This document shows positions 16,084 through 31,297 of a stretch of 37,258 nt of DNA, piece after piece. The notes beneath the pieces are model-generated. The model saw only the letters and a list, made by a program, of their open reading frames with translations, was not told the origin of the DNA and searched no databases. The position numbers were made by a program, and so were the translations under genes. Position 1 is the stretch's first letter, and each line of letters opens with the position of its first letter. This DNA comes from Candidatus Mediterraneibacter excrementavium. Lineage in GTDB: Bacteria; Bacillota; Clostridia; Lachnospirales; Lachnospiraceae. The DNA is taken from positions 1 through 37,258 of the forward strand of contig DWVL01000030.1 in assembly GCA_019120275.1 (NCBI GenBank), given 5' to 3'.

Positions 16084-18666
16084 TCAACACGTTGCTCCGC
16101 CTTTTAAGTGCTTCTGTGCTTTCAGGTTTTCTTCTTTTCTCGCCAGCAGCTCGTTGGAAAGGAGCTGTTCCTGTACGTTCTCGAATCCGAGTCTTGCCAC
16201 GGTGTCTGCGAAACGCTCGCCCGTAATTCCCTGCTCACGGAAGAGAAGGATCGCTTTTTCTACGACCGCCAGCACTTCGTCCTTGTCGGTGAATACTTTA
16301 TCAAGATACCTGCCCTGGGCCACTTTCTTGCCCCAGCGTCCGCCAATGTAAATCCGGTAGCCGTCTGTATAGTCTTCCACCGCGTGGAACGGGCACTTGC
16401 CGATGCAGCGTCCGCAGTGGTTGCAGGCATTGTCGTCGATGGTGATCCTGCCGTCGATCATCTTTGCCACATTGATCGGGCAGTTGTTTTCGATCTGGCA
16501 GATCTTGCATCCGCGGCACTTCTCCAGATTGATCTGCGGCACTCTCTGTCCGATGATGCCCAGGTCGTTGAGGTCCGGCTTCACGCAGTTGTTCGGGCAG
16601 CCGCCCACTGCGATCTTGAATTTGTGCGGCAGTTTGACTTCCCGGTACCCGTGGTAGAAGCGCTCATGGATCTCTTCGGAGAGTGCAAATGTATCGATCA
16701 GTCCGTACTGGCATGTGGTCCCCTTACAGGATACGACCGGCCGGACTTTGGATCCGGTGCCGCCGGTCTCCAGTCCGGCCTGCATCAGGTATTCTCTGAG
16801 CGGCTCGATGTTGTCGAAGGGCACGCCCTGGATCTCCATGGTCAGGCGGGACGTCATGGTCACTTCTCCGCTTCCGTACAGTTCTGCTGCCTCGGCAATG
16901 GTCCTCGCCTCTTCTGCGGTGATCTTGCCGTTCCGGGTGATCACGCGGCCGTTGAACTTATCCGGGGTCCGTTTGTCTTTCAGGAATCCAAGCGCCTTTA
17001 CCCTCGTCTCTTCTTCTTTTGATACGGCGTCTTCCGTATTCTTTACTTTCACATCATTGAAGAATGTAGCGCCTTCCAGCACCACTGTATTTGTATATCC
17101 GTAGTAACGCATGCGGTTCTGGAGGAAATATGCTCTCTTGCCTTTCGCGCACACGAGCAGCAGTTTCTCATCTTTGGCCAGGCCTTCGATCTCGCCCTTA
17201 ACCTGTCCCAGGTTGACGAAGAATGCGCCCCGGATATTCGGCTCCGGCGCCACGTCCACCACACGGTATCCTTCAGCCGCGCCCGCCGCGTACTCTGCCG
17301 GCGTCATGCTGACGATACTTCCGTCGATCTTGTTCATCAGCACATAGACCGCCTGCACGAACGGATGGATGGCCGTGGAGAAAGGCGGCGCATAAGCAAA
17401 GTCCGCGTTCTCGAAATCATCCAGCTTCGCGTCCATGTTGATACCCATCACGGCAATGTCCACCATCTTGTCCACTTCGCCCGGTCCGAACACCTGCACG
17501 CCAAGCAGTTTTCTCGTCATCTTATCCGCGATCAGCTTTGTAATAAAGAAGGATGCATCCGGATAGTAATGCGCCTTGTCATCCGTAGGCACGAGGGCGG
17601 TGATCACATCATATCCGGCCTCTTTCGCCTGCGTTTCCGTAAGTCCGGTGCGCCCGATGTTCAGTCCCGGGAGCTTCACCACGCCGGTCCCGAGCACGCC
17701 CGGATAGCTCTTCTGTGCGCCGGCCAGCACCTGTGCCAGCGTACGTCCTGCCAGGTTCGCCGTGGAGCCCATGGGCGACCACTGGCGCTTCCCGGTAATG
17801 CGGTTCGTCACCATCGCGCAATCGCCTGCCGCGTAAATGTCATCCAGGCTGGTCTTCATCTGCGCGTCCACCAGGATCGTCCCCTTGAACATCTCGATCC
17901 CTGTATCATTCAGGAATCCGGTGTTCGGACGGATGCCCGCCGCCATGATCAGCATCTCGCAGGGCAAGGTTCCCGCAGAAGTCTTCACACCGGTCACTTT
18001 ATCCGTACCGAGCACTTCTTCCGCGCTCGTCCCGGTGATCACACGGATTCCCTGGCTGAGCAGATGCTTCTTCGCATAGGCCGCCATCTCCGGATCCAGG
18101 ATGTTGGGCAGGATCTGGGATGCGAAATCGATCACCGTCACGCGGATCCCTCTGGCATGCAGGTTTTCCGCCGCCTCCAGGCCGATAAACCCGGCGCCGA
18201 TCACGACCGCTTTCTTCACGCCGTTCTCCTCTGCGTATGCGCGGATACCCTCCGCATCGTCCGGCGTCCTCATCTTAAATACACCGGCCAGCTCTTTCCC
18301 CGGGACCGGGAGCTCCGCTGCTGAAGCGCCCACGGCGAGCACCAGCTTATCATAGGAACAGACCTCCGTATTCCCGGTCTGCACATCCTTAACCGTTACT
18401 TCTTTCTTCGCCGCGTCCAGGGCGACCGCCTCTTTGCCGGTGCGCACCTCCACGCCGGTCAGCCCGGAATATTTCTGCGGCGTATTCACGATCAGTTCGT
18501 CCCTGCTCTCGATAAATCCGCCCACATAATACGGAAGCCCGCATCCCGCATAGGAAATATCCTGATCCTTCGTGATCACAGTCACTTCGATGCTCCGGTC
18601 TTCCCGTTTTAACTTCGCCGCAGTTTTGGTCCCGGCTGCGACGCCGCCGATAATGAGTACTTTCAT
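16084..18666 (-). CDS. Redox fusion: CoA-disulfide reductase, rhodanese, siroheme sulfite reductase-like and ferredoxin domains
   Basis: One 860-residue cytoplasmic polypeptide contains four modules. Residues 1-445 are an FAD/NAD(P)H-dependent CoA-disulfide reductase-type oxidoreductase (GGVAAG FAD loop, redox Cys42 in YAGCGLPYYVGG, IGAGFIGLEAAE, and YAAGDCA near 278-284). Residues ~466-542 are a rhodanese-like domain that keeps an active-site-like cysteine loop CAKGKRA (C506). Residues ~570-710 resemble a nitrite/sulfite reductase half-domain with the siroheme-[4Fe-4S] cysteine pattern C647, C652, C690, C694 (VGGCPNNC). Two ferredoxin clusters follow: C717, C720, C723, C729 and C748, C751, C754, C758. 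The arrangement suggests NAD(P)H-driven reduction of persulfide, polysulfide or sulfite with sulfur passed between domains (inference). A DUF134 gene precedes it by 80 bp in the same direction. Confidence 0.85.
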   Translation of the reverse strand: MKVLIIGGVAAGTKTAAKLKREDRSIEVTVITKDQDISYAGCGLPYYVGGFIESRDELIVNTPQKYSGLTGVEVRTGKEAVALDAAKKEVTVKDVQTGNTEVCSYDKLVLAVGASAAELPVPGKELAGVFKMRTPDDAEGIRAYAEENGVKKAVVIGAGFIGLEAAENLHARGIRVTVIDFASQILPNILDPEMAAYAKKHLLSQGIRVITGTSAEEVLGTDKVTGVKTSAGTLPCEMLIMAAGIRPNTGFLNDTGIEMFKGTILVDAQMKTSLDDIYAAGDCAMVTNRITGKRQWSPMGSTANLAGRTLAQVLAGAQKSYPGVLGTGVVKLPGLNIGRTGLTETQAKEAGYDVITALVPTDDKAHYYPDASFFITKLIADKMTRKLLGVQVFGPGEVDKMVDIAVMGINMDAKLDDFENADFAYAPPFSTAIHPFVQAVYVLMNKIDGSIVSMTPAEYAAGAAEGYRVVDVAPEPNIRGAFFVNLGQVKGEIEGLAKDEKLLLVCAKGKRAYFLQNRMRYYGYTNTVVLEGATFFNDVKVKNTEDAVSKEEETRVKALGFLKDKRTPDKFNGRVITRNGKITAEEARTIAEAAELYGSGEVTMTSRLTMEIQGVPFDNIEPLREYLMQAGLETGGTGSKVRPVVSCKGTTCQYGLIDTFALSEEIHERFYHGYREVKLPHKFKIAVGGCPNNCVKPDLNDLGIIGQRVPQINLEKCRGCKICQIENNCPINVAKMIDGRITIDDNACNHCGRCIGKCPFHAVEDYTDGYRIYIGGRWGKKVAQGRYLDKVFTDKDEVLAVVEKAILLFREQGITGERFADTVARLGFENVQEQLLSNELLARKEENLKAQKHLKGGATC

Positions 18667-18746: not shown

Positions 18747-19112
18747 TTACTCCCTCCAGCCCCGGGATCGATCTTTGTTTCTGTGGCAGCAATGTTCCTC
18801 GCCGGCACATTCCGGACGCGGCGCCGGGCATATATAGACGTCGCCCCCTACGATGTGCAGGTTTCTTCCGCCCACCAGCATGTCCGCCATCTTCCGGCGC
18901 GCCTCGTCATAGATCCGCGTCACGGTCGGGCGGGAGATCCCCATCCGCTGCGCGCACTGCTCCTGCGTCATCTGCATATGATCCAGCAGACGGATCACTT
19001 CATATTCGTCATATGTAAGCTCCACAGTCCCGTCCGCCGCACACCCCTGCGGGGTGAAACCCGTGACCTGCGGAAGCGAACAGATGCAGCGCTGCTTCGG
19101 TGGCCTTGCCAT
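18747..19112 (-). CDS. DUF134/UPF0251 family predicted DNA-binding protein
   Basis: The 121-residue protein opens MARPPKQRCICSLP, the typical family start. A sigma-70 region 4-like helix-turn-helix follows (LTYDEYEVIRLLDHMQMTQE and MGISRPTVTRIYDEARRKMA), then a C-terminal tail with several Cys/His residues (ICPAPRPECAGEEHCCHR). The second of two in-frame ATGs is chosen: GGAGGAG lies 8 nt from it but only 2 nt from the upstream ATG (19118). The Cys-rich tail could bind a metal or cluster. Its position upstream of the redox fusion under a strong promoter suggests that it regulates that operon, perhaps autogenously (inference). Confidence 0.85.
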   Translation of the reverse strand: MARPPKQRCICSLPQVTGFTPQGCAADGTVELTYDEYEVIRLLDHMQMTQEQCAQRMGISRPTVTRIYDEARRKMADMLVGGRNLHIVGGDVYICPAPRPECAGEEHCCHRNKDRSRGWRE

Positions 19113-19154
19113 GGCCATCTCCTCCTTTCCAGATCAGATATGACTCTACTTCTT

Positions 19155-20016: not shown

Positions 20017-20304
20017 TTATGCTTCCTGTTTTACGCATAAATATCTGAGCACGTTGTCCATAATGCGGATACGCTGTTCCACTTCACCCGGAACAGTTGT
20101 CTCAGCCTCGAAGTGTACGAAGTAGTAATATCCTTCTGTCATCTTCTGGATCTCGTAAGCGAATCTTCTCTTGCCCCACTCGTCAACGTCTGTTACGTTG
20201 CCGCCGAAACGTGTGATAAGAGCTTTTACTTTCTCGATCACGTCAGCTCTTGCTTCGTCTTCGAGTTTTGCGCTCACAACAACAGCTAATTCATACTTAT
20301 TCAT
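20017..20304 (-). CDS. rpsF: 30S ribosomal protein S6
   Basis: The 95-residue S6 begins MNKYELAVVVSAKLEDEARA; GKRRFAYEIQKMTEGYYYFV and MDNVLRYLCVKQ are family signatures. It forms the S6:S18 heterodimer. AAGGAGGTG precedes the ATG by 8 nt. It is the first gene of the rpsF-ssb-rpsR unit. Confidence 0.97.
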   Translation of the reverse strand: MNKYELAVVVSAKLEDEARADVIEKVKALITRFGGNVTDVDEWGKRRFAYEIQKMTEGYYYFVHFEAETTVPGEVEQRIRIMDNVLRYLCVKQEA

Positions 20305-20399
20305 GGTCCTGCACCTCCTTATGGTCTCTGGCCCCCGTCCTGACGCGGGAGCAAGGAATTATGAAACTTGCCGGATATCAACCGACAGTATGTCACGGT
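20305..20399 (-). promoter_or_regulatory. rpsF 5' leader, possible S6:S18 autoregulatory RNA
   Basis: About 95 nt separate the inferred transcription start (~20398) from the rpsF ATG. At its 5' end a hairpin can be drawn (20381-20399; ACC/GGT plus GACA/TGTC), followed by CCGG- and GC-rich segments before the ribosome binding site. Many bacteria carry an S6:S18-binding leader with a CCG element upstream of rpsF. I cannot confirm the full motif by eye. Confidence 0.35.
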
Positions 20400-20404
20400 T
20401 AAAC

Positions 20405-20433
20405 ATGATACCACAAGTATCCGGATGTTTCAA
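20405..20433 (-). promoter_or_regulatory. Promoter of rpsF-ssb-rpsR
   Basis: TTGAAA (20433-20428), a 17-nt spacer and TATCAT (20410-20405). It lies immediately after the stop codon of the upstream ABC ATPase gene, so the ribosomal unit is transcribed independently. Confidence 0.75.
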
Positions 20434-20441
20434 GTCCTTTT

Positions 20442-21044
20442 TTACAATCTGACCACTCTTGTACACACTTTTTCCAGAAGCGCCCCGCTGTGGCTTACGA
20501 CCAGCATGCCCATCCCTCTTTTCCCGCTCTCTCTTATGAGGAATTCCCAGATCTGCGCCTGGCTCACCAGGTCCAGCATGGCCGTGATCTCATCGCACAG
20601 GAGAAATGCGGTCTCCGGGCGGAGCGCCCTTGCCAGGCAGAACCGCTGAAGTTCTCCGCCGGAGAGTTCCGACGGGAAGCGGTCCATCCATTCCGGCCGG
20701 ATCCGCAGTTCCTCCAGGATCCGTTTATCCGGCTCCCCGGCTTCCTTCAGTGTATCGCCAAGGCGCAGGAGGGGATCCACAGCTGCCTCCGGATGCTGCC
20801 AGATCATCTGTACCGGACAGACACCTTTATATCCGCTGACCGCCTTTCCGTCCAGAAGCACGCTGCCGCTTTTCGGTTTCTCATAACCTGCCAGCAGGCG
20901 GCAGAGGGTGGTCTTCCCCCGGCCGCTCGATCCGGTCAGGCCGACCCGTTCGCCGGGTGCGACAGTCAGATCAAAATGATCGATCACCGGCGCGTGTTTC
21001 CGGTTCCGGTAATAAAAAGTAAGATCTTTCGCCTCAAGCATCAT
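20442..21044 (-). CDS. ABC transporter ATP-binding protein, nickel/peptide type (second ATPase)
   Basis: This is a 200-residue ATPase of the DppF/NikE/OppF class. It has Walker A GSSGRGKTTLC, Q-loop region PVQMIWQHPEAAVDP, signature LSGGELQRFCLARAL, Walker B FLLCDEITAMLD and H-loop VVSHSG. It is shorter than DppF-type proteins (often about 300 residues), because it ends soon after the H-loop and lacks the C-terminal oligopeptide-type extension. Its start overlaps the end of the first ATPase by 4 bp. It is the last gene of the lar-importer operon. Confidence 0.9.
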   Translation of the reverse strand: MMLEAKDLTFYYRNRKHAPVIDHFDLTVAPGERVGLTGSSGRGKTTLCRLLAGYEKPKSGSVLLDGKAVSGYKGVCPVQMIWQHPEAAVDPLLRLGDTLKEAGEPDKRILEELRIRPEWMDRFPSELSGGELQRFCLARALRPETAFLLCDEITAMLDLVSQAQIWEFLIRESGKRGMGMLVVSHSGALLEKVCTRVVRL

Positions 21045-21883
21045 ACGTCCGTCCCGCTTTCATTTTTATTATCACGCTGCACCTGCTTCCCATCTTCCGG
21101 GTCCGGCATCACACGGAACCCGTGCTCCGGCATGGCATGCCACAGCGCCTGTGTGTAGGGATGCCGCAGATTCTCCACATTTTCAAAGTCCGCAGCCTTC
21201 GCCTGCTCGATCGTCTCTCCTTCGTAGAAGACAGTCACATCATCAGCCACGGTAAGCGCCAGCTCCAGGGCATGGGTGATGAAGAGGATGCCCGCCCCCT
21301 CGTCCGCCAGCTCCCGGAAATGCCCCAGGATCCGCTTCGCCGACCGCGCATCCAGGCCCGGCGTCGGTTCATCCGCGATGATCAACCGGGGCTTCTCCGT
21401 CACAGCAGAGGCGATCAGCACCCGGCGGGCCATCCCGCCCGACAGTTCGAAGGGATACAGTTCTTCCGTCTCCGGGCCAAGCCCGTAGCGCAGAAGCGCC
21501 GCCCGGCATCGTTCTTCCGTCCCGGCGTCTTTTCTGCCCTTCCGAAGCTGCGGGCCCACTTTCATGAGCGGATCCAGATATGTGACGCCTTGGGGGATCA
21601 GAAAGATCTCCCGGCCTCTCAGCGCCTTCGCCCGCTTCTGCGTCAGCGGCTCCCCGTCATAGAGAATGGTTCCCTCCGCCCGGCTGTTGTAGGGCAGGAT
21701 CCCCAGAATACCGTGGGCCAGCAGGCTTTTCCCGGAGCCGCTGGCCCCGACGACCGCCGCGATCTGCCCGGGCATGACTGCAAGAGACAGATCTTTCACC
21801 ACATGGAGCTGCCGTCTGCGGGCGCCCCGGTCATATTGTGTAAATGAGACCGACAGATGCTCGATCTTCAGGATTGGTTCCAT
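21041..21883 (-). CDS. ABC transporter ATP-binding protein, nickel/peptide type (first ATPase)
   Basis: This is a 280-residue ATPase of the DppD/NikD/OppD class. It has Walker A GASGSGKSLLAHGILGILP, IFLIPQGVTYLDPLMKVG in the Q-loop position, signature LSGGMARRVLIASA, Walker B LIIADEPTPGLD and H-loop FITHAL. It pairs with the second ATPase to power import through the two permeases encoded just upstream. The gap to the upstream permease gene is 8 bp. Confidence 0.92.
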   Translation of the reverse strand: MEPILKIEHLSVSFTQYDRGARRRQLHVVKDLSLAVMPGQIAAVVGASGSGKSLLAHGILGILPYNSRAEGTILYDGEPLTQKRAKALRGREIFLIPQGVTYLDPLMKVGPQLRKGRKDAGTEERCRAALLRYGLGPETEELYPFELSGGMARRVLIASAVTEKPRLIIADEPTPGLDARSAKRILGHFRELADEGAGILFITHALELALTVADDVTVFYEGETIEQAKAADFENVENLRHPYTQALWHAMPEHGFRVMPDPEDGKQVQRDNKNESGTDV

Positions 21884-21891
21884 AATACCTC

Positions 21892-22749
21892 CTATTCATG
21901 GAAGCTGGCAGGATCCGTCAGCCTCCTCACCCGCTCGCCTGCCATGGCGAACAGCACCACCACAAGGACAAGGGATAATCCCGGGAACAGCGCCAGCCAC
22001 CATTTCCCCGTGGTCAGGTACTGCATGCTTTCCGAAAGGATCACCCCGATGGCCGGCTGTTCCGGCGGCAGCCCGAATCCCAGAAATGTCACCCCGGATT
22101 CATGCAGGATCGCATGGGGGAACAACAGGATCAGACCGGTCAGGAACTGGGGAAAAACATGGGGGAACATGTGCCGCACGGCGATCCGCATCCGGGACAC
22201 GCCCAGCTTCTGCGCCGTCAGGATGTAGGGCGCCTGGCGAAGCTGCAGGATCTCGCCCCGGATCACCCGGGCCAGGGACGCCCAGTGGCTTAAGGCCACT
22301 CCTGCCGTTACCCCGGCCACGCCTTTCCCGAAGACCAGCGAGATCAGCATAACGAGCAGGATGTGGGGGATCCCCATCACCAGATCGATGCACCAGGAGA
22401 TCACGGCGTCCGCCTTCCGTCCGCCCACTGCCGAAACCGTGCCCAGCACCAGCGCGACCGCTGCACTGACCGCCGCGGTCAGGATGCCGATGCGGATGCT
22501 CAGAGACAGACCGGCCAGTGTCCGGGCCAGCATGTCCCGCCCCATCCAGTCCGTCCCGAAGAGGTGCCCGGCGCCCGGCGCCAGATTTTTCCGGGAAAAA
22601 TCCGTCTCCGCCGCGGCTTTGTCCAGCAGGATCCCGGACACCATCACCGTCAGCAGGGCCAGGCCGGCGCACATGAGGAAGATCCCCATGCTCCTCCGCC
22701 GGTTTCCCGGCTCCGCCTCCCGCATTCCGATATTCCATTCTTCATTCAT
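21892..22749 (-). CDS. ABC transporter permease, nickel/peptide type (DppC/NikC-like)
   Basis: This 285-residue membrane protein begins with an N-terminal signal-like segment (MGIFLMCAGLALLTVMVSGI) followed by DppC-class landmarks: HLFGTDWMGRDMLARTLAGL, a block of hydrophobic helices, and the cytoplasmic coupling loop around VALSHWASLARVIRGEILQL. It overlaps the preceding permease gene by 4 bp. It would form the channel together with that permease. Confidence 0.92.
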   Translation of the reverse strand: MNEEWNIGMREAEPGNRRRSMGIFLMCAGLALLTVMVSGILLDKAAAETDFSRKNLAPGAGHLFGTDWMGRDMLARTLAGLSLSIRIGILTAAVSAAVALVLGTVSAVGGRKADAVISWCIDLVMGIPHILLVMLISLVFGKGVAGVTAGVALSHWASLARVIRGEILQLRQAPYILTAQKLGVSRMRIAVRHMFPHVFPQFLTGLILLFPHAILHESGVTFLGFGLPPEQPAIGVILSESMQYLTTGKWWLALFPGLSLVLVVVLFAMAGERVRRLTDPASFHE

Positions 22750-23738
22750 CGCCGCGCCGCCCCCTTCCGGATCCGCGGGTCCGCCGCTCCGTAGAGCAGA
22801 TCCGCGATCAGATTGCCGATAAAGACGATCGCCGCCGTCACCACCGTGATGCCGAGCAGCAATGGCAGATCGCTTCCAAGTCCTGCCGTCACCGCCGCCT
22901 GCCCAAGGCCCGGGTAGGAGAAAACCTGCTCCACCAGCACAGACCCGCCGATGATCTCGCTGACCGAGGCAAACTGCAGGGTGATGGCCGGGAGCAGCAC
23001 ATTCCGGAGACCGTGCCGTAGGACGATGGACCGCTCAGATTCCCCCCGCGCCCGCGCAAAGAGGACATAATCCGAGCTCATCACCCCGACCATCTTCTCC
23101 CGCGTATGAAGGGCGATATTCGCCACGCCGGTAATGCTCAGCGTCAGCGCCGGCAGTACGGCATGCCGCAGCCGGTCCGTGAACGTAACTGCCGCCGCTT
23201 CCATCCCGGCCGGCACCGACAGCCCCACCGGAAGCCACCCGAGCCACACGGAAAAGATCAGCAGGAGCAGGATCGCCAGCCAGAACGCCGGCGTGCCGGA
23301 GATCAGCAGACAGTAGCCCCGGATCGCCCGGTCCGGCCAGCGCCCCCGGAATGCACCCGCAAGGATCCCGAGCGTCAGTCCCAGCACCCCGGAGATCACC
23401 CAGGCGGCCAGAAGGACCAGGATCGATCCCGCCAGCCGTTCCCCGATCACGGCAAGCACCGGCTGCCGGTAGAGCAGCGAAACGCCCAGATCCCCCCGGA
23501 GCGCGTCCAGAAGCCACCCAATATACCGGGAAAGGGGCGGCGTGTCCACGCCCCAGTAGGCCTCCAGCTTCGCGATCTGCTCCGGACTCATGGACCCCAG
23601 CGCCGCCTGCCCCACATTGGTCTGCAGCGGGTCCAGGGGCGACGCGCTCATCAGCAGGAAGGTCACAATGCTCACCCCCAGGAGGAGCAGTGCCATGCGT
23701 ATTAATTTTTTACCGGTAAACCATAGCCGGTGCTTCAA
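22746..23738 (-). CDS. ABC transporter permease, nickel/peptide type (DppB/NikB-like)
   Basis: This 330-residue protein has the DppB-class N-terminus (MALLLLGVSIVTFLLMSASP, DPLQTNVG). It contains an extracellular segment with YWGVDTPPLSRYIGWLLDAL, RGDLGVSLLYRQPVLAVIGE, helices and the coupling loop with TREKMVGVMSSDYVLFARAR, GLRNVLLPAITL and EQVFSYPGLGQ. It starts 6 bp after the binding-protein gene. Confidence 0.93.
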   Translation of the reverse strand: MKHRLWFTGKKLIRMALLLLGVSIVTFLLMSASPLDPLQTNVGQAALGSMSPEQIAKLEAYWGVDTPPLSRYIGWLLDALRGDLGVSLLYRQPVLAVIGERLAGSILVLLAAWVISGVLGLTLGILAGAFRGRWPDRAIRGYCLLISGTPAFWLAILLLLIFSVWLGWLPVGLSVPAGMEAAAVTFTDRLRHAVLPALTLSITGVANIALHTREKMVGVMSSDYVLFARARGESERSIVLRHGLRNVLLPAITLQFASVSEIIGGSVLVEQVFSYPGLGQAAVTAGLGSDLPLLLGITVVTAAIVFIGNLIADLLYGAADPRIRKGAARR

Positions 23739-23744
23739 GTCCCA

Positions 23745-25391
23745 TCATCCTTTCCAGGTCCATTGATCTACATTGTTGACCACCGACCACCCGTGTCCGT
23801 GGGGATGGATCTTCTGCTCCGCCATCTGAAGCCCGTCCCGCACCCAGTAGAGATGATCGATATTCACAAGCCACACCCAGGGGATGTCCCCCTCCCAGGT
23901 CACGCCTTCCGTCCCGTCCCACTGGGCCTGCTGCCACAGCTGATAGGACGTTTCCAGGTCATTCTGCGCCAGCGCCTGGTCCATATAGCGGTCCACAGTG
24001 CCGCTGGCATATGGCGAATACAGCGCCCAATCCGATCCGGCGGCCGTATGGTAAATGTTATAAAGCTCCATCGGCGTATGGGCGCCCCAGCCCCAGATCA
24101 ACGGATCCGAGAGCGCCCGGTCGTAAGCCGTATCCCAGCCCACGCCTTCCAGCGTGCAGGAGATGCCAAGTTTCCCGAGCTGGTCCGCGAAATCCGCGGC
24201 CAGCGCCTGGCGGACAGAGTCTCCGGCCGAATAGAGCAGGTTCAGTTCCGCCTTCACGCCGTCCTTTTCCCGGACGCCGTCATCCCCGGTCTTCCAGCCC
24301 GCCTCATCAAGAAGCGCCGCCGCGCCCTCCGGGTCATATTCCACTTCGGACGCTTCGCTGTACCAGGGCATCTGATCGCACACGCTGTATGCCGGGCTTC
24401 CATACCCGTTCAGCACATGGTCGATCATTTCCTGCCGGTCAATGCCCATATTGATCGCCCGGCGCACCCGCACGTCCGCCGTGAGATCATTTCCCACCGT
24501 GCGCCCCTGTGCGTCGGTCTGCTCCGGCACGGCCGGAAGATTGAATCCCCGGTTGTCCACCGTGGCATAGGACGCCAGCGCATATCCTTCGATCTGCTGG
24601 TCCGAGTAAGTGGCGGACGTATAGGCCAGATCCACCTGGCCGGCCTGCGCCGCAAGAAACGCCGCATCTTCCTCCATAAAGAGGATCGTCACTTTCTTCA
24701 TCAGCGGCTCCCCGCCGTAGTAATCCGGATTCGCCTCCAGGATCACCTGCTGCCCCTGGTCCCACTGCTTCAGGATATATCTGCCCGAACCGACAGGAGA
24801 TGCGCCATATGTCGCGCTGTCATAGGCATGCTCCGGCACGATCCCGGTCACGGCCATGGTGTAGGGCCAGATGGAGAACGGCCGGTTCATATGGAACACA
24901 ACCGTCCTGTCATCCGCCGTTTCCGCATAATCCAGCATGGTAAAATCACTGACCGAACTGGACGCTTTAACAGTATTGTATGTAAAAGCCACATCCTCCG
25001 CGGTAAGCCTCTCCCCGTCCGTAAAGGACACATCATCCCGGATCGTGACCGTCCAGGTCAGGCCGTCTTCACTGACCGAATAATCCGTCGCCAGATCATA
25101 CCCGATGGTAAGATCCGGGTTCGTCACCGTCAGGGTGCTCTGGATCAGCGGCTCATGGACATGCTCGCCTGCGCCCCAGCCGTACGCCGGATCAAAACCG
25201 GCCGCCGGTTCGGAATTGGGATCCATGGCCACCACCACTTCCCCCGCCCGGGCCCTCTGCTCTGCCGCCTGCGCGGATGTCCGGGCAGCCGCGCCTGTTC
25301 CCGCGGAGCCATTTCCGCAGCCGGATGCCGCACATGCTGCGGACAGCGCCAGTGCCGCTGACAGGAGCACCGCGGTATATTTCCTACTCAT
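23745..25391 (-). CDS. Family 5 extracellular binding lipoprotein with C-terminal His-rich motif; candidate nickel binder
   Basis: From ATG 25391 the protein is 548 residues: a lipoprotein signal (MSRKYTAVLLSAALALSAAC and AASGC) and then the large family 5 binding fold (peptide/nickel class): LATDYSVSEDGLTWTVTIRD, FTDGERLTAEDVAFTYNTVK, GSGRYILKQWDQGQQVILEA, RRAINMGIDRQEMIDHVLNG. The C-terminus holds HPHGHGW (23787-23807), three His in seven residues. The start overlaps the larC stop (ATGAGTAG, 25391-25384), so translation is coupled to larC. That coupling with cofactor genes that need Ni favours nickel or a nickel chelate as the cargo over peptides (inference). The longer frame to 25499 is rejected because the signal peptide would be internal. 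Confidence 0.88.
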   Translation of the reverse strand: MSRKYTAVLLSAALALSAACAASGCGNGSAGTGAAARTSAQAAEQRARAGEVVVAMDPNSEPAAGFDPAYGWGAGEHVHEPLIQSTLTVTNPDLTIGYDLATDYSVSEDGLTWTVTIRDDVSFTDGERLTAEDVAFTYNTVKASSSVSDFTMLDYAETADDRTVVFHMNRPFSIWPYTMAVTGIVPEHAYDSATYGASPVGSGRYILKQWDQGQQVILEANPDYYGGEPLMKKVTILFMEEDAAFLAAQAGQVDLAYTSATYSDQQIEGYALASYATVDNRGFNLPAVPEQTDAQGRTVGNDLTADVRVRRAINMGIDRQEMIDHVLNGYGSPAYSVCDQMPWYSEASEVEYDPEGAAALLDEAGWKTGDDGVREKDGVKAELNLLYSAGDSVRQALAADFADQLGKLGISCTLEGVGWDTAYDRALSDPLIWGWGAHTPMELYNIYHTAAGSDWALYSPYASGTVDRYMDQALAQNDLETSYQLWQQAQWDGTEGVTWEGDIPWVWLVNIDHLYWVRDGLQMAEQKIHPHGHGWSVVNNVDQWTWKG

Positions 25392-26670
25392 TATCCGTCT
25401 GCCCCTTTCTCTTTCCGGCATGGTACGCCCGCATCGTTTCTTCGCAGACTTCCCGATATGGAACGCCCGCCTTCTCCGCCGCCGCAGCCGCGTCTTCATA
25501 TTCCGGCTTCACGTGCACGATGCCGGACCTTTCAGCCGTCTTTACCCGGACCGCACCGTACAGGGTCTCCACCGTTTCACTGCCGGGTCTCAGGAAATAT
25601 TTCCGGCAGAGGCGGACCCGCACGCCGTTGGTGGTCGTCTCCCGCAGGATATTTTCCGCAGTCCGGTCGATCCGGCCCGCATCACACAATACGGTAAGTT
25701 CCCAGCCCGGCCGCCCTTTCTTCATGGTCCCGGCCGTGGCATACGCATCCAGCGCCCCCAGATCAAGCAGCTTTTTCTGCGCGTACGCGAGCGCCTCCGG
25801 CGTCATGTCGTCGATATTGCACACCAGCTCCGCGATGCTGCCATCGGCGCCCTCTTCTGTCTCTCCCAGAAAGACGCGGACGCAGTTTGCCCGGTCAAAT
25901 TCTTTCGTTCCAATCCCGATGCCGACGGACGTTCCCCGCATCACCGGCATATCCCCGAAATGCTGCGCGAAATGTATGAGCAGGGCCGCCCCGGTGGGCG
26001 TGCACAGTTCTCCCCTGACCTGTCCGCCGTACATGGGGACATCCGCCAGAAGATTCGCCGTGGCCGGCGCAGGGACCGGCATCACGCCGTGGGCGCAGCG
26101 GACCGTGCCGCTCCCCACATGGACCGGCGACGCCAGGATCCGGTCCGGATGGAGCAGTTCCAGGGCATAGCAGACTCCGGCCACATCCGCCACCGCATCC
26201 AGGGCGCCCACTTCGTGGAAATGCACGTCGCCCGCCGGACACCCGTGGGCCTTCGTCTCCGCTTCCGCGATCAGGTCATAGACCCGGCGCGCATGATCCC
26301 GCACACACTCCGGCAGCGGAAGCCCGTCGATCAGCGCCGCGATATGCCCCGGGGAAACATGATGATGCCCGTGCTCATGTTCATGTCCATACTGATGTCC
26401 GCATCCGTGGTCATGCAGGAAGTCCTGCGGATGCCCGTGCGGTGTGTCCGGCTCCCGCTCCTCTTCTCCGTGCACGGTCACTTCCATATGTGTGCCCGCG
26501 ATCCCGCAGGTCGTCTTCCGGCAGGGCACCACTTTTACCCCCGGAAGACCCAGACCGTTCATCTTTTCCACGAACTGCTGTTTCTGTTCATCACTCAGCA
26601 GTTCGTACAGCGCCGCCATCAGCATGTCGCCGGCCGCGCCCATATTACATTCAATATATAAGGTCTTCAT
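25384..26670 (-). CDS. larC: Nickel insertion protein LarC (pyridinium-3,5-bisthiocarboxylate mononucleotide nickel chelatase)
   Basis: LarC inserts nickel into the pincer nucleotide cofactor of lactate racemase-type enzymes. The protein is 428 residues in one uninterrupted frame; in Lactiplantibacillus plantarum the gene is split into larC1/larC2 and needs a frameshift. Seen: the family start MKTLYIECNMGAAGDMLMAA, a His-rich stretch (about 78-104, with HDHGCGHQYGHEHEHGHHH) likely to hold metal, DVHFHEVGALDAVADVAG, TPTGAALL, and C-terminal CNIDDMTPEALAYAQKKLLD. It lies 4 bp after larB and overlaps the binding-protein gene by 8 bp. Confidence 0.95.
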   Translation of the reverse strand: MKTLYIECNMGAAGDMLMAALYELLSDEQKQQFVEKMNGLGLPGVKVVPCRKTTCGIAGTHMEVTVHGEEEREPDTPHGHPQDFLHDHGCGHQYGHEHEHGHHHVSPGHIAALIDGLPLPECVRDHARRVYDLIAEAETKAHGCPAGDVHFHEVGALDAVADVAGVCYALELLHPDRILASPVHVGSGTVRCAHGVMPVPAPATANLLADVPMYGGQVRGELCTPTGAALLIHFAQHFGDMPVMRGTSVGIGIGTKEFDRANCVRVFLGETEEGADGSIAELVCNIDDMTPEALAYAQKKLLDLGALDAYATAGTMKKGRPGWELTVLCDAGRIDRTAENILRETTTNGVRVRLCRKYFLRPGSETVETLYGAVRVKTAERSGIVHVKPEYEDAAAAAEKAGVPYREVCEETMRAYHAGKRKGQTDNE

Positions 26671-26674
26671 TCCG

Positions 26675-27439
26675 TCAGTTCTCCTTTATCCCTTCCATCT
26701 GATTGATCATTCCCGCCAGATATCCGGCGCCGAATCCGTTGTCAATATTCACCACGCTGCACCCGGAAGCACAGGAGTTGAGCATGGACAAAAGCGCCGA
26801 CAGCCCGCCGAAGTTCGCCCCGTATCCAACACTGGTGGGTACCGCGATCACCGGGCAGTCCACCAGGCCGCCGATCACCGAGGCCAGAGCCCCTTCCATC
26901 CCCGCCACGGCCACAACGCAGCGCGCGCTCATGAGCGGATCCAGATTGGACAGCAGACGGTGAAGCCCCGCTACGCCTACATCGTAGAGCCGGGTGACCC
27001 GGTTTCCCATCGCTTCCGCCGTCAGCGCCGCCTCCTCCGCCACCGGGATGTCGCTGGTCCCGCCGGTGGCCACCACGATGCTTCCCCGGCCCTCCTGCGG
27101 TTCCGGAAATGCGACGGCCAGCCGGGGCAGCGGATGATACTCGGCCGGGACAGCGGCGCACAGGATATCCGCCGTATCCTGGTCAATACGGGTCACCAGG
27201 ATGTTCCTGCATCCTTTCGCCCCCATCGCTTCCACGATCCCCCGGATCTGCTCCGGCGTCTTGCCGGCGCCGTAGACCACCTCGGAAGCGCCCTGCCGGA
27301 TGCCCCGGTGATAGTCGATCTTGGCATAATCCAAATCCTCAAAAGGTTCTTCCTTCAGATGCAGAAGAGCCTGCTCCGGGGAAGTCGAACCGTCCGCCAC
27401 ACTCCGGAGGAGCTCCAGTATCTCCTGTTTATTGTTCAT
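26675..27439 (-). CDS. larB: LarB, nicotinic acid adenine dinucleotide carboxylase/hydrolase (pincer cofactor synthesis)
   Basis: LarB carboxylates the pyridinium ring of NaAD and releases AMP, the first committed step towards the nickel-pincer nucleotide. The chosen start (MNNKQEILELLRSVADG) gives 254 residues. A small N-terminal domain (with DYHRGIRQGASEVVYGAGKT) precedes a PurE-like domain with VVATGGTSDIPVAEEAALTA, VAVAGMEGALASVIGGLVD and PTSVGYGANFGGLSALLSML. ATG at 27439 overlaps the larE end by 11 bp; the frame is open to 27508 but the family start is the internal Met. Confidence 0.95.
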   Translation of the reverse strand: MNNKQEILELLRSVADGSTSPEQALLHLKEEPFEDLDYAKIDYHRGIRQGASEVVYGAGKTPEQIRGIVEAMGAKGCRNILVTRIDQDTADILCAAVPAEYHPLPRLAVAFPEPQEGRGSIVVATGGTSDIPVAEEAALTAEAMGNRVTRLYDVGVAGLHRLLSNLDPLMSARCVVAVAGMEGALASVIGGLVDCPVIAVPTSVGYGANFGGLSALLSMLNSCASGCSVVNIDNGFGAGYLAGMINQMEGIKEN

Positions 27440-28241
27440 GATCCGTTCCCTCCTCTTCCTGATCATTCTCTGTGTGCCGTTCCATGTCCGGACTCCCGGC
27501 CCGCACATTCAGATCCAGCAATACACCGTCAAAGAGGCCGCCCAGCCGTTCCATGATCTCTTCCCGCTTTTCAAGAGCCAGGGCAAACTGCTCCGCCCGG
27601 ACCTGGATCCGTGCCGCTTTTCCGTACATCCGGACACGGAAATCCCGGAATCCCATCTCACTCATCTGCGTTTCCGCCCGCTCCACATTCCGAAGCCGGT
27701 CATTCCGGATCGCTGTCCCGGTCGGGATCCGGGTGGCAAGGCAGGCGTACGCCGGTTTCTCCCATGTGAACAGCCCGGCTTTCCTGGAAAGCAGGCGCAC
27801 CTCCGCCTTCGTGATCCCGCATTCCCGAAGCGGCGAGCGCACCCCCAGTTCCCGGAGCGCCCGCATGCCCGGCCGGTCGCCTGCGTCATCGGATGCATTG
27901 GTCCCGTCCAGAAGGACCGTATACCCGTCTTCTGCGACCGCCTCCTGGAGCGCCGTGAAGATCGCCCGCTTGCAGTGATAGCACCGGTCCGGCCCGTTGG
28001 CCGCAGCCTCCGGCACTGCCAGGATATCCAGCTCCACCACCGTCATTGGGATATCCAGCTCTCCCGCCAGCCTGCGCGCGTCCTCCAGCTCAAACTCCGG
28101 CTGGAAGGCGGTCTTCACATAATAGGCGTGCACGTCACATCCGTTCTGTTTTGCAAGATATAAGAGGAGCGCTGAATCCGTCCCTCCTGAAAACGCTGCG
28201 GCAGCCCGCGGCGTCTGTCTGAAAAAATCTTTTACCGTCAT
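27429..28241 (-). CDS. larE: LarE, ATP-dependent sulfur transferase (pincer cofactor synthesis)
   Basis: LarE activates the pincer precursor with ATP and replaces carboxyl oxygen by sulfur. This 270-residue PP-loop protein has SGGTDSAL at 18-25, DGTNASDDAGDRPGMRAL at about 112-129, and KPAYACLATRIPTG with C167 at the position of the sacrificial cysteine of the L. plantarum enzyme. It also has a CYHC pair (C87, C90). Three-cysteine LarE proteins are known to hold a [4Fe-4S] cluster that carries the transferred sulfide, so a non-sacrificial mechanism is inferred here. The C-terminal tail is unusually acidic and His-rich (ERHTENDQEEEGTDHEQ), translated from DNA that contains the larB start. It is the first gene of the operon. 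Confidence 0.93.
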   Translation of the reverse strand: MTVKDFFRQTPRAAAAFSGGTDSALLLYLAKQNGCDVHAYYVKTAFQPEFELEDARRLAGELDIPMTVVELDILAVPEAAANGPDRCYHCKRAIFTALQEAVAEDGYTVLLDGTNASDDAGDRPGMRALRELGVRSPLRECGITKAEVRLLSRKAGLFTWEKPAYACLATRIPTGTAIRNDRLRNVERAETQMSEMGFRDFRVRMYGKAARIQVRAEQFALALEKREEIMERLGGLFDGVLLDLNVRAGSPDMERHTENDQEEEGTDHEQ

Positions 28242-28261
28242 CCTGTATCTCCTCTGTCTTC

Positions 28262-28314
28262 AAAAAAAGAAAAGGCACCCGCTTCCCTCTGAAAGCTGAT
28301 ACCTTCCTGATATC
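28262..28314 (-). terminator. Intrinsic terminator with competing antiterminator helix before larE
   Basis: In the minus-strand RNA GGUAUC (28303-28298) pairs with GGUGCC (28279-28274) and, inside it, GCUUUC with GGAAGC (loop AGAG). U-rich TTTTCTTTTTTT (28273-28262) follows, only 20 nt before the larE ATG. An alternative hairpin GAUAUC-AGGAA-GGUAUC (28314-28298) uses the same 5' arm and would exclude the terminator. The G-U pairs form only in RNA read from the minus strand. Either it simply ends the DUF951-DUF3842 transcript, or it is an attenuator for larE; no promoter is visible in the 20 nt between it and larE. Confidence 0.7.
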
Positions 28315-28349
28315 TTTTTCCTGTATTTCGGTCATGCGCTCCGGTATAC

Positions 28350-28365
28350 CCGGACTTCAGTCCGG
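28350..28365 (-). other. Perfect 6-bp hairpin with TGAA tetraloop in the larE leader
   Basis: CCGGAC and GTCCGG flank a 4-nt loop. It lies between the DUF3842 stop and the terminator at 28262-28303, within a ~125-nt segment that has no gene. GC-rich repeats of GCCGGAC surround it, so it may be part of a larger leader fold. Confidence 0.5.
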
Positions 28366-28387
28366 CTGTCCGGCTTCATGCCGGTCC

Positions 28388-28804
28388 TCATCCCTCTGAT
28401 GCCATGATCCCTTTCAATGCATCTACTGCGCATTCCACGCGTCTTCCCATAGACGTATTTTCAATTCCAACGACAATATTATCACAAAGATTGACCGGAA
28501 TCAATATCCGCTTCGCCGCGCTCTGCCCGACCGCCTGCGCCATGCGCGGTGTGATCTCGCCCAGCATGGCATCCGCGATCACAATGCCCACCGGTCCCAT
28601 GATCACATCAGCGCTCCTGCAGACGGTCACCACGGAGTTCTCCCCTGTCGCCGCCTGGTCCGCGCCTGCCTTCAGCATCATATTTGTCGCCGCACTGTTG
28701 GTGCCCACGGCGATGACCTCGATCCCGCGGTCATATCCTTTCACCGCGGTCACAAGCTGTTTCCCCAGGCCGCCGCCCTGGCCGTCTATCACAAGTACTC
28801 TCAT
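28388..28804 (-). CDS. DUF3842 family protein
   Basis: This 138-residue protein starts MRVLVIDGQGGGLGKQLVTA, a Rossmann-like nucleotide-binding loop typical of the family. GTNSAATNMMLKAGADQAAT and MGPVGIVIADAMLGEITPRM follow. The family is common in clostridial genomes and its biochemical role is not established. The ATG directly abuts the stop codon of the DUF951 gene (TAAATG), so the two are translationally coupled. Confidence 0.88.
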   Translation of the reverse strand: MRVLVIDGQGGGLGKQLVTAVKGYDRGIEVIAVGTNSAATNMMLKAGADQAATGENSVVTVCRSADVIMGPVGIVIADAMLGEITPRMAQAVGQSAAKRILIPVNLCDNIVVGIENTSMGRRVECAVDALKGIMASEG

Positions 28805-29005
28805 TTATTCCTCTCCCTGCGCCTTCTTCACGATCTGTCTGGTATTCTTCTCGACCAGCTTTCTTGACACCATGATCTGATGCCCGCACCCGGCACATTT
28901 CAGCCTGAAATCCGCGCCCGTGCGCAGGATCTCCCATTCATGGCTTCCGCATGGATGAGGCTTTTTCATCCGGATAATATCTCCCACACTGAATCTGTCT
29001 GCCAT
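28805..29005 (-). CDS. DUF951 family small zinc-ribbon-like protein
   Basis: This 66-residue protein has the family pattern FSVGDIIRMKKPHPCGSHEW and RLKCAGCGHQIMVSR. The Cys in HPCG plus the CAGC knuckle suggest a zinc ribbon, possibly nucleic-acid or ribosome associated (inference). In many Firmicutes the family gene lies near core replication or translation genes. AAAGGAAAAG precedes the ATG. It is 22 bp after the sortase gene and adjacent to DUF3842. Confidence 0.88.
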   Translation of the reverse strand: MADRFSVGDIIRMKKPHPCGSHEWEILRTGADFRLKCAGCGHQIMVSRKLVEKNTRQIVKKAQGEE

Positions 29006-29027
29006 CTTCTTTTCCTTTCACCTGCCG

Positions 29028-29834
29028 CTAGTCAATATCTGTAAGCACCCCGCGGACAACAAACCTGTTTGCATGACCGTTTCCTGTACATGTAGACAAT
29101 GTTATGATCTGCGACTGGGCGTTCAGTTCCACATCCACCTGATAATTCGAATCCGCGCTGCATCTGCTGAGGAACTGTTCGTACTCCTCATCCGTTGCAA
29201 AATCCACCACATAATTCTCGGACTTTGCACTCACCTCTCCTGCCGCAAATACCGTATATGTGCGCACGCTTCCATCCGGAGTATAGATATAGAAATCAGG
29301 ATGTTCCTCGCAGAATGATTCATCTTTATAAAGGTTAAGCCGGGAAAACATATCCGGGCTTACATTCAGATGATGCCCATAAATGATCGTGTTTTTATCT
29401 GAAAAATCACTGCTGTTGCGCATATCCATGAAAATAGCGCCAAGTTTATTGTCATTTTCCGAAAATGTTTTTGTAAGGTACTCTTCATTATCCGCGCTCT
29501 TTACGACAGGATAATTAATGATCGAGGGTTCATCGAACCGGATCCAGGCGATCGTATCCGGATTTATCTCAAGAAGCGCATCGAAATCCACACTGAACCC
29601 TGTTCCGTCCGCATCCGCCTCAACCGCAAGATCCTGGATCTCATCGTACTCTTTCCCGCCTGTGTAATACGGGACAAGCATCATAACAAGCTGATACAGT
29701 GAAAACACAAACACACATACCGCAGCGATCAGAACCGTACCCGATATAATGTCAAATAAAAATTTATTCTGTTTTTTCCGTTTCTTCTGCGGCCTCCGGC
29801 CGCCGGAACGTCTTCTTCTTTTTTCCGGCATCAT
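29028..29834 (-). CDS. Class B sortase
   Basis: From ATG 29834 the protein is 268 residues: a highly basic N-terminus (Arg/Lys-rich), one membrane anchor (about 28-54, FDIISGTVLIAAVCVFVFSL) and a sortase domain. The catalytic His is in IIYGHHLNVSPDMFSRLNLY, the Cys in ITLSTCTGNGHANR and the Arg in the same ANRFVV block. The TLSTCT box and the extended spacing match class B. Sortases cleave LPXTG/NPXTX-type signals and join proteins to the cell wall. No gene with such a signal is visible in the window, so its substrates lie elsewhere. ATG at 29834 or 29831 is preferred over 29879 because GGAG lies just upstream and the longer form would overlap the LUD gene. Confidence 0.9.
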   Translation of the reverse strand: MMPEKRRRRSGGRRPQKKRKKQNKFLFDIISGTVLIAAVCVFVFSLYQLVMMLVPYYTGGKEYDEIQDLAVEADADGTGFSVDFDALLEINPDTIAWIRFDEPSIINYPVVKSADNEEYLTKTFSENDNKLGAIFMDMRNSSDFSDKNTIIYGHHLNVSPDMFSRLNLYKDESFCEEHPDFYIYTPDGSVRTYTVFAAGEVSAKSENYVVDFATDEEYEQFLSRCSADSNYQVDVELNAQSQIITLSTCTGNGHANRFVVRGVLTDID

Positions 29835-29859
29835 TCTGCTCCTTCGTTTATCCGTTATT

Positions 29860-30495
29860 CTAGAATCCAAGATTTTCATCTACAAGGATGATCTTGAACC
29901 GTTTCGGTATCCTGCTGAATCTGGTGACCATGATCTGGCAGCAGATGCAGTCTTCACTTTTACAGTCAAAACAGCTTCCGTTCCTGACACACGGGGTATC
30001 CGAACCAAACCGCTGCGTATTGATCGGCGCCGCCTCATTCCTTGCCCTGTGCATGGCGTCTTCCTGGGTCTTAACGATCTTATTCATCCCCACGATCAAA
30101 AGCACATTTTTCGGACCGAAAGCATAGGCAGCCACCCGGTTGGCATTCCCGTCAATATTGACAAAAACTCCGTCCTCGCTCATAGCATTCACACTGCCCA
30201 GATACCAGTCGCATTCAAATGCCTTTCTCGCGATCTTTTCCTTCTCTTCCGGAGTCGGCGCCAGGTCCCGGTCATAAAATGTATAATTTCCGTCCTTCAG
30301 CGCTTCAATAAGCCCGGATTCGCGGACAGAAGCCGATCCGCCCATATTGACCGTGCTCCCCTCGCCGATCAGGCGGAGTGCCGTCTTTACGGCTTCTTCT
30401 CTGGATTCCACATAATAAGCTTCCATATTTCTTGATTCCAGCGCTTTGACAACTCTTTCCCCAAGCGCTTTATTTCTTTTTTCTCTGGGTCCCAT
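29860..30495 (-). CDS. LUD domain protein (lactate-utilisation/LutC-like)
   Basis: This 211-residue protein of the LUD (DUF162) family has EGSTVNMGGSASVRESGLIE, VNAMSEDGVFVNIDGNANRV, AYAFGPKNVLLIVGMNKIVK and a cysteine-rich C-terminal stretch (SCFDCKSEDCICC) that could bind a metal or cluster. Family members with a Fe-S partner act in lactate oxidation; stand-alone clostridial members have no firm role. It is 25 bp from the sortase gene. Its nearness to the lar genes is suggestive of lactate metabolism but is not proof. Confidence 0.85.
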   Translation of the reverse strand: MGPREKRNKALGERVVKALESRNMEAYYVESREEAVKTALRLIGEGSTVNMGGSASVRESGLIEALKDGNYTFYDRDLAPTPEEKEKIARKAFECDWYLGSVNAMSEDGVFVNIDGNANRVAAYAFGPKNVLLIVGMNKIVKTQEDAMHRARNEAAPINTQRFGSDTPCVRNGSCFDCKSEDCICCQIMVTRFSRIPKRFKIILVDENLGF

Positions 30496-30568
30496 TATAC
30501 TGCGCTCCTTTCATTTTAAGACAATTCTTTTTTATTCTATCACATTCCGCTTTTCAATGCATCGCATT

Positions 30569-31282
30569 TCATCGATCTCGCTCAATATCCTGGTCAATAT
30601 CACCAGACTGGCCATCAGCTGCAGACACATAATACTCCTTTCCTGTCTCCAGGCAGAGACACCCCAGCCTGCCTCCGGCTTCTGCAAAAACCGCCCCGCA
30701 GTCCACATCGATCAGCCGTCCGTCCGGACAGTGCCAGATCGTGGCCGGTTCATTTCTGGTCCCCCGGATCAGGAATGTCGGAACATGGCCGACAACAGAC
30801 ATATATCCCGGGATCCCCCGCTGCCTGTCGATCATGGATGTATCCCACAACAGCCGTTCTTTCCTTTTCCATATATGCAGGATCTCCTCTGTCGATGCAT
30901 GCGCGAGAAGCCAGCATTCACCGCCCGTCTTCACTTTCGCACAGAGCGGCAGCGTTTTCATAAAATCCACGTATTCCGGGATCTTCTTTCGCCACCTTGC
31001 ATCCGCGCAGAGGACATCATATGTATTATAGTAATACGGGTACCGGTCTCTGTCAGGCGCTTCATACCATTCCACAAAACCGTCCTCATGGTTTCCCCGC
31101 AAAGCCGTAATATTCGGGCAGTTCATCGCCAGGTCCAGCACCCCCGCCGGATCCGGCCCCCGGTCGATCATATCGCCCAGGATATAAACCCTGTCATCTG
31201 CATCCGGCTGTATCATATCCAGCATCTTTTTCAAGAGATCTGACATGCCGTGAATATCCGACATCACATAATTCCTGCCCAT
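30569..31282 (-). CDS. Serine/threonine protein phosphatase (PPP family metallophosphoesterase)
   Basis: The 237-residue protein has the three PPP metal and phosphate motifs: SDIHGM (residues 8-13), LGDMIDRGPDP (about 35-45) and LRGNHEDGF (about 60-68). Histidines (LLAHAS, SVVGHVPT) follow in the C-terminal half. It resembles the small bacterial/phage-type phosphatases and would use two metal ions such as Mn. The start ATG is 15 bp after the Rpn-like gene, so the two are probably cotranscribed. Substrates are unknown. Confidence 0.9.
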   Translation of the reverse strand: MGRNYVMSDIHGMSDLLKKMLDMIQPDADDRVYILGDMIDRGPDPAGVLDLAMNCPNITALRGNHEDGFVEWYEAPDRDRYPYYYNTYDVLCADARWRKKIPEYVDFMKTLPLCAKVKTGGECWLLAHASTEEILHIWKRKERLLWDTSMIDRQRGIPGYMSVVGHVPTFLIRGTRNEPATIWHCPDGRLIDVDCGAVFAEAGGRLGCLCLETGKEYYVSAADGQSGDIDQDIERDR

Positions 31283-31297
31283 TCACAATCCCTCAGA

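Follow-up and report, generated by a model that had tools for sequence, protein, structure and literature searches.

A lar gene cluster joined to a conserved YntABCDE-like, presumably nickel, importer in Candidatus Mediterraneibacter excrementavium

Introduction

The NikABCDE genes of E. coli follow each other in the order binding protein, two permeases and two ATPases. The lar operon of L. plantarum carries its own nickel importer, which is of the larMN/QO type.

YntABCDE of Yersinia is described in the available part of PMC2667541 as a nickel importer that is distant from NikABCDE and is told apart from it by its gene neighbourhood; in the same portion of that 2009 paper, the mode of nickel binding by YntA is given as unclear. 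On the side of cofactor synthesis, the CXXC-C cysteines of LarE from T. maritima bind a [4Fe-4S] cluster, according to the accessible text of PMC9283937. In addition, the part of PMC11796402 at hand reports larBCE without larA, and with an unknown client, for about 15% of genomes and for most cyanobacteria, and supposes that the cyanobacterial client has a fold distinct from that of LarA.

In this study we analysed a stretch of 37,258 nucleotides from Candidatus Mediterraneibacter excrementavium (hereafter the window), in which larE, larB and larC are followed by the genes of a binding-protein-dependent importer. Like the L. plantarum lar operon and the lar loci with a CbiM-type importer, the window clusters the genes for the nickel-pincer nucleotide (NPN) with a metal importer; however, the importer genes here encode a YntABCDE-type ABC system with a binding protein, and the window is without LarA. 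The pump part is a variant of a known pairing, that of lar genes with a nickel importer. The window importer resembles Yersinia YntABCDE in its five-part make-up and in the best match of its lipoprotein, which is YntA, but it is joined to larEBC and its lipoprotein ends in an HPHGHG tail, whereas the alignment shows just one IHG in YntA. It shares superfamily and gene order with NikABCDE of E. coli, although its proteins reach none of the NikA-E equivalog cut-offs. The host genome has an NPN pathway without a known client, as do the larBCE genomes without larA in the available portion of PMC11796402, and differs from what is described there by a dedicated importer and a DUF3842 gene.

Results and Discussion

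The eight genes of the row are arranged head to tail on the minus strand, from position 28241 to 20442, and their junctions span -11 to +8 bp. The row begins with larE (27429..28241), which encodes a sulfur insertase of the CXXC-C ([4Fe-4S]) type, and continues at -11 bp with larB (26675..27439), encoding a carboxylase/hydrolase, and at +4 bp with larC (25384..26670), encoding a CTP-dependent nickel insertase. A YntA-like, presumably nickel-binding lipoprotein follows at -8 bp (23745..25391; SBP_bac_5, 270 bits; lipobox recognised by eye). The next two genes encode permeases matching PF00528 (BPD_transp_1), one of the NikB/OppB type with a TTG start (22746..23738, 141 bits; junction +6 bp) and one of the NikC/OppC type (21892..22749, 88 bits; -4 bp). 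The last two encode ATPases matching PF00005 (ABC_tran): a NikD-like protein (21041..21883, 86 bits; +8 bp), scoring 150 with TIGR02770, below the cut-off of 319, and a short NikE-like protein of 200 aa (20442..21044, 81 bits; -4 bp), scoring 125 with PRK10419, below the cut-off of 354. Thus, the gene models and their junctions bear out the original prediction of larEBC and a complete ABC importer in one tight row, and we infer that the row is co-transcribed.

Two further minus-strand genes lie upstream of larE. The nearer one, at a spacing of 146 bp, encodes a lar-linked DUF3842 protein (28388..28804; PF12953, 165 bits), which is abutted with a gap of 0 by the gene of a DUF951 protein (28805..29005; PF06107, 103 bits). 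Scans of positions 20200-31400 for promoters (7 seen vs 5.2 expected) and terminators (8 vs 7.3) stayed at chance level, and neither tRNAs nor Rfam families at gathering score were found within the window. Genes resembling rpsF-ssb-rpsR, named by eye, start 137 bp downstream of the row.

All three Lar proteins passed the cut-offs of NCBIfam equivalog models (given in brackets after the scores in bits): LarE with TIGR00268 at 243 (150), LarB with NF033503 at 284 (175), and LarC with both TIGR00299 at 203 (90) and NF052512 at 130 (50). LarC is a single ORF bearing a His-rich stretch, HEHEHGHHH. The translation of larE contains FSGGTDS, corresponding to the SGGxDS loop, and the cysteines C87, C90 and C167 in the CXXC-C pattern; since these fit the characterised [4Fe-4S] LarE, we assign the protein to the iron-sulfur type. 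By their family models LarB, LarC and LarE belong to the NPN pathway, and synthesis of NPN is predicted.

The closest solved relatives of the lipoprotein, according to a sequence search, are 3ry3 and 4ofl/4ofo, at 349 bits over residues 59-546 of 548, whereas the runner-up solved chain scored 151 bits and E. coli NikA 88 bits. In the PDB titles, 4ofl/4ofo is the nickel-binding protein YpYntA and 3ry3 a putative solute-binding protein. Near the C end of the lipoprotein, H513, H529, H531 and H533 were kept in 22/22 aligned close relatives, an alignment made up of 13 of 14 loci from the family and 9 from the genus (L201, in which the gene is split, was excluded). The tail has the form H-x-H-G-H, with either HPHGHG, as in the window copy, or HGHGHG among the close relatives. 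Five distant Opp-like neighbours of lar genes are without most of the histidine tail, and GHHG is retained in three of them. The scores of the window importer against the NikA-E equivalog models TIGR02294, 02789, 02790, 02770 and 02769 were 157, 204, 148, 150 and 119 bits, with cut-offs of 393, 447, 358, 319 and 333, respectively. Because no Nik equivalog cut-off was reached, we do not call the importer NikABCDE but YntABCDE-like, with nickel as its presumable substrate. An importer of this type, passing no nickel equivalog model here, could get annotated as a peptide transporter.

The pairing of lar genes with the importer was found well beyond this locus. LarC occurred in 36 of the 58 genomes of the genus, and a binding protein of at least 48% identity was found in 32/36 larC-positive vs 1/22 larC-negative genomes (Fisher P 7e-11), the single larC-negative case being a contig-end fragment in G271. 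With the window's own copy counted, the binding protein adjoined larC on the same contig in 30 of the 36. G253 is truncated at the end of a contig, and in G267 the binding protein is encoded elsewhere in the genome. As a close binding protein was absent from four larC-positive congeners (G254, G258, G290 and G301), and lay apart in G267, it is not obligatory with larC. These linkage counts are not independent of kinship. Co-occurrence and linkage in the genus place the lar-importer pairing beyond chance.

In the wider family, LarC was found in 154 of 250 genomes, one per genus. We compared 138 larC neighbourhoods, having set aside the copy of G000 itself and 15 further cases that were weak, partial or split, although a few of the 138 are split as well; L202, a DUF362 locus, stands outside this count. 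An importer homologue lay beside the lar genes in 14 of the 138, where about 0.8 would be expected by chance with one importer copy per 3 Mb genome (the expected numbers assume genomes of 3 Mb and one or two copies). The survey of larEBC and importer in Lachnospiraceae that accompanied the original prediction as a proposal thus came out in its favour, both in the genus and in other genera. Three gene orders were met: larE-B-C-importer in L094 and L137, importer-larB-C-E in 11 loci (L077, L078, L080, L098, L110, L116, L126, L162, L194, L197 and L201), and a divergent order in L143 only, where a match to the second ATPase was missing from the stretch. The lipoprotein was 65-77% identical to the window copy in 11 of the 14 and 32-45% identical in L094, L110 and L162, and larC of the importer-larBCE group was 30-39% identical to that of the window. 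From these sequences, a single importer type seems to have been joined to two or more lar lineages, a pattern that speaks for a functional connection beyond the common descent of one cluster. Other importers occupied the same place elsewhere, CbiM-type in 9/138 and more distant Opp-like sets in 5/138, and 124 of the 138 neighbourhoods, some of them cut by contig ends, had no YntA-type importer in reach. L116 carries both a YntA-type and a CbiM-type importer beside lar. Two neighbour clusters present in 17 loci each, one hybrid-kinase-like (21 ORFs) and one MATE-like, were set aside as, by eye, large families met by chance.

Probably, the locus is an NPN module, larEBC, fed by a YntABCDE-like, presumed nickel importer, and its client is not a detected LarA. 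The lipoprotein would capture a Ni(II) chelate and the importer would pump the chelate in; LarB would carboxylate and hydrolyse nicotinic acid adenine dinucleotide, the iron-sulfur-type LarE would insert sulfur, and LarC, using CTP, would insert nickel. The supply of nickel to LarC through the importer, as had been proposed, appears well supported by linkage in several gene orders, by YntA as the closest solved relative and by the conserved histidine tail. We infer that the module is active, and consider it real, conserved and sensible as a set of NPN genes alongside a pump that is YntABCDE-like and presumably carries nickel.

The proposal that the cofactor serves a LarA encoded elsewhere did not fare as well. 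The genome search for a LarA-family (DUF2088) protein, as far as an assembly that is 86% complete and in 96 contigs reaches, found none: the only match to PF09861 (Lar_N) lay in a DUF362-ferredoxin protein and scored 20.5 bits, below the cut-off of 23.3. There is a slightly less than even chance that the client in the host genome is an unrecognised NPN protein. That there is no client in the host, the cofactor being exported or the pathway a relic, seems unlikely.

The best client candidates are DUF362 proteins, represented in the same genome by the DUF362-ferredoxin protein at C39:8137-9261; what speaks for them is correlation, and part of the results point the other way. The protein was assigned the LarA fold, and in a profile alignment it matches the spacing of His-x9-Lys-x15-His of LarA. 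However, its TM-scores to LarA were low (0.40-0.48 by query length), with an rmsd of 5-13 Å over the Foldseek alignments, and the profile alignment has no His at the DUF362 place equivalent to the second catalytic His (His108). DUF362 candidates also remained below the PF09861 cut-off of 23.3, with 19.5 bits for the copy of the host genome, 19.7 bits for P0001 and no match for L257; as queries, P0001 begins one residue early and L211:8140-9261 is without its Met. Moreover, the motif was kept in all five DUF362-ferredoxin copies tested from larC-negative congeners, and was intact in 79 of 80 DUF362 loci from elsewhere (the best 80 of 576 confirmed). Because genomes without larC keep it, the motif alone does not imply NPN, unless cells share the cofactor with one another. 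DUF362 without ferredoxin was also found, among the best 80 of 576, in records titled Bacteroidales, Bifidobacterium, Bacilli and others.

Co-occurrence also spoke against DUF362 as the client. Within flanks of up to 9 kb, lar genes were near only 3 of the best 80 of 576 loci; they were adjacent each time, and one of the three (L303) repeats L129. LarC was present in 6 of 18 genomes tested among those of the 80 loci, which had been picked for isolates and spread, and these counts ignore kinship, completeness and genome size. In 14 control genomes we found LarC in 6, LarA in 2 and DUF362 in 5. Only two of the four controls with LarC and without LarA had DUF362 (Synechococcus elongatus and Haloferax volcanii, as opposed to Corynebacterium glutamicum and Methanocaldococcus jannaschii), while Bacteroides ihuae had DUF362 without LarC. 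In G306, which has larC and the importer, neither LarA nor DUF362 was found. The motif in larC-negative congeners and elsewhere, together with the control genomes, weakens DUF362 as an obligate client, and it is unlikely that the C39 protein uses NPN. A wider proposal, in which DUF362 proteins would be the missing NPN users of larBCE-positive, LarA-negative genomes, ferredoxin-DUF362 would couple hydride chemistry to electron transfer and DUF3842 would be a nickel-supply helper, is rather unlikely as a whole. A published function for DUF362, a large LarA-fold family, was not found in the literature, where it appears alongside the nickel-pincer nucleotide as an outgroup. Some congeners have a lipoprotein form of DUF362.

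A LarA-family client might instead lie in the missing 14% of the host genome, a reading favoured by the incompleteness of the assembly and by G035, a single-contig genome of another genus, which has the operon most like that of the window and also has LarA. Since G035 has LarA, a LarA client holds for some relatives. In the genus, however, full-length Lar_N (at least 140 bits) was found in only 4/36 larC-positive vs 7/22 larC-negative genomes (P 0.08), so LarA was not commoner with larC. It was missing from 32 of the 36, and from 8 of the 11 larC-positive genomes at least 98% complete; two further larC-positive genomes had divergent Lar_N matches (G275, 39 bits; G298, 35 bits). Two comparison lists excluded G000, and their LarA cut-offs were 75 bits in one and E 1e-20 in the other. 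Six of the seven larC-negative LarA cases were ORFs of about 500 aa, a length matching that of the LarA-like enzymes 9q3j and 9q2u, which have Asn in place of His174 according to the accessible part of PMC12611868; these six had no His-x9-Lys line, consistent with Asn at His174. Thus, we regard a LarA in the missing part as quite unlikely.

With respect to the substrate, the importer could handle more than one divalent metal, or a complex with a metallophore (Ni, Co), LarC being one recipient among others. The CntA opine-metal binder model was among the matches, at 109 bits and far below its cut-off, and at another lar locus, L172, the CbiM-type partner scores above the cut-off of a cobalt-transporter model; but within the genus the presence of the importer tracks larC closely, and we consider this reading improbable. 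Peptide uptake (Dpp/Opp) by an importer that came to lie next to larEBC by chance is very improbable and unsupported, for although every subunit belongs to the peptide/nickel superfamily and the Opp4B and Opp4C permease scores slightly exceed those of the nickel models, all below cut-off, the linkage in 30/36 larC-positive genus genomes and 14/138 neighbourhoods of other genera in three orders, the wide lead of YntA over peptide binders and the conserved H-x-H-G-H tail all argue against it.

For the NPN module with its presumed nickel pump, interest centres on the client, a question that bears on the approximately 15% of larBCE-positive, LarA-negative genomes reported in the available part of PMC11796402. 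That a gut genus has retained the NPN pathway along with a dedicated, presumed nickel pump suggests that the client is worth the metal. Two concrete genes can be offered for the client or helper question, DUF362 as a LarA-fold candidate and DUF3842.

DUF3842 was named in no paper that we found in the open literature, which included few subscription papers, and preprints only via PubMed Central. A single-sequence structure prediction of the protein gave a pLDDT of 35. Any part that it may play in supplying nickel is conjectural. The gene lay upstream of larE in 12/12 genus neighbourhoods compared and near larC in 14 of the 138 from other genera, and an importer (YntA-type, Opp-like or CbiM-type) was present at 9 of these 14 loci vs 18 of the 124 others (P 1e-4).

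Small proteins beside the lar loci, LarA-like genes and DUF362 proteins

In 13 of the 138 other genera of the family, each represented by one genome, the lar genes were neighboured by a pair of adjoining genes for small proteins of about 140 and 105 aa (loci L103, L131, L133, L136, L168, L170, L174, L178, L183, L184, L187, L203 and L207; representative pairs at L103:10797-11575 and L183:5635-6392). Judged by eye, both proteins appear membrane-bound, and a search of two representatives of the pair against the Pfam and NCBIfam profiles gave no match. The pair may represent an additional, undescribed transporter for nickel or the cofactor.

Six congeners (G264, G268, G279, G282, G284 and G292; loci L217-L222) carry LarA-like genes whose open frames span about 500 aa, and the LarC search of these genomes, which are 83-99% complete, returned no matches. 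The eight DUF362 proteins selected by their weak Lar_N matches (L227-L234) all come from genomes possessing larC. A lipoprotein-like start was recognised by eye in seven of them, the sequence at L233 being shortened; the extramembrane location that such a start suggests is odd for a LarA-fold protein.

Other genes in the window

An 860-aa protein (16084-18666) resembles CoA-disulfide reductase in its N-terminal half and sulfite reductases in its C-terminal half, with every score below the cut-off, and is adjoined by a DUF134 helix-turn-helix protein (18747-19118). A LUD-domain protein (29860-30495; PF02589, 174 bits), of a domain type associated with lactate utilisation, is encoded a few genes upstream of the DUF3842 gene.
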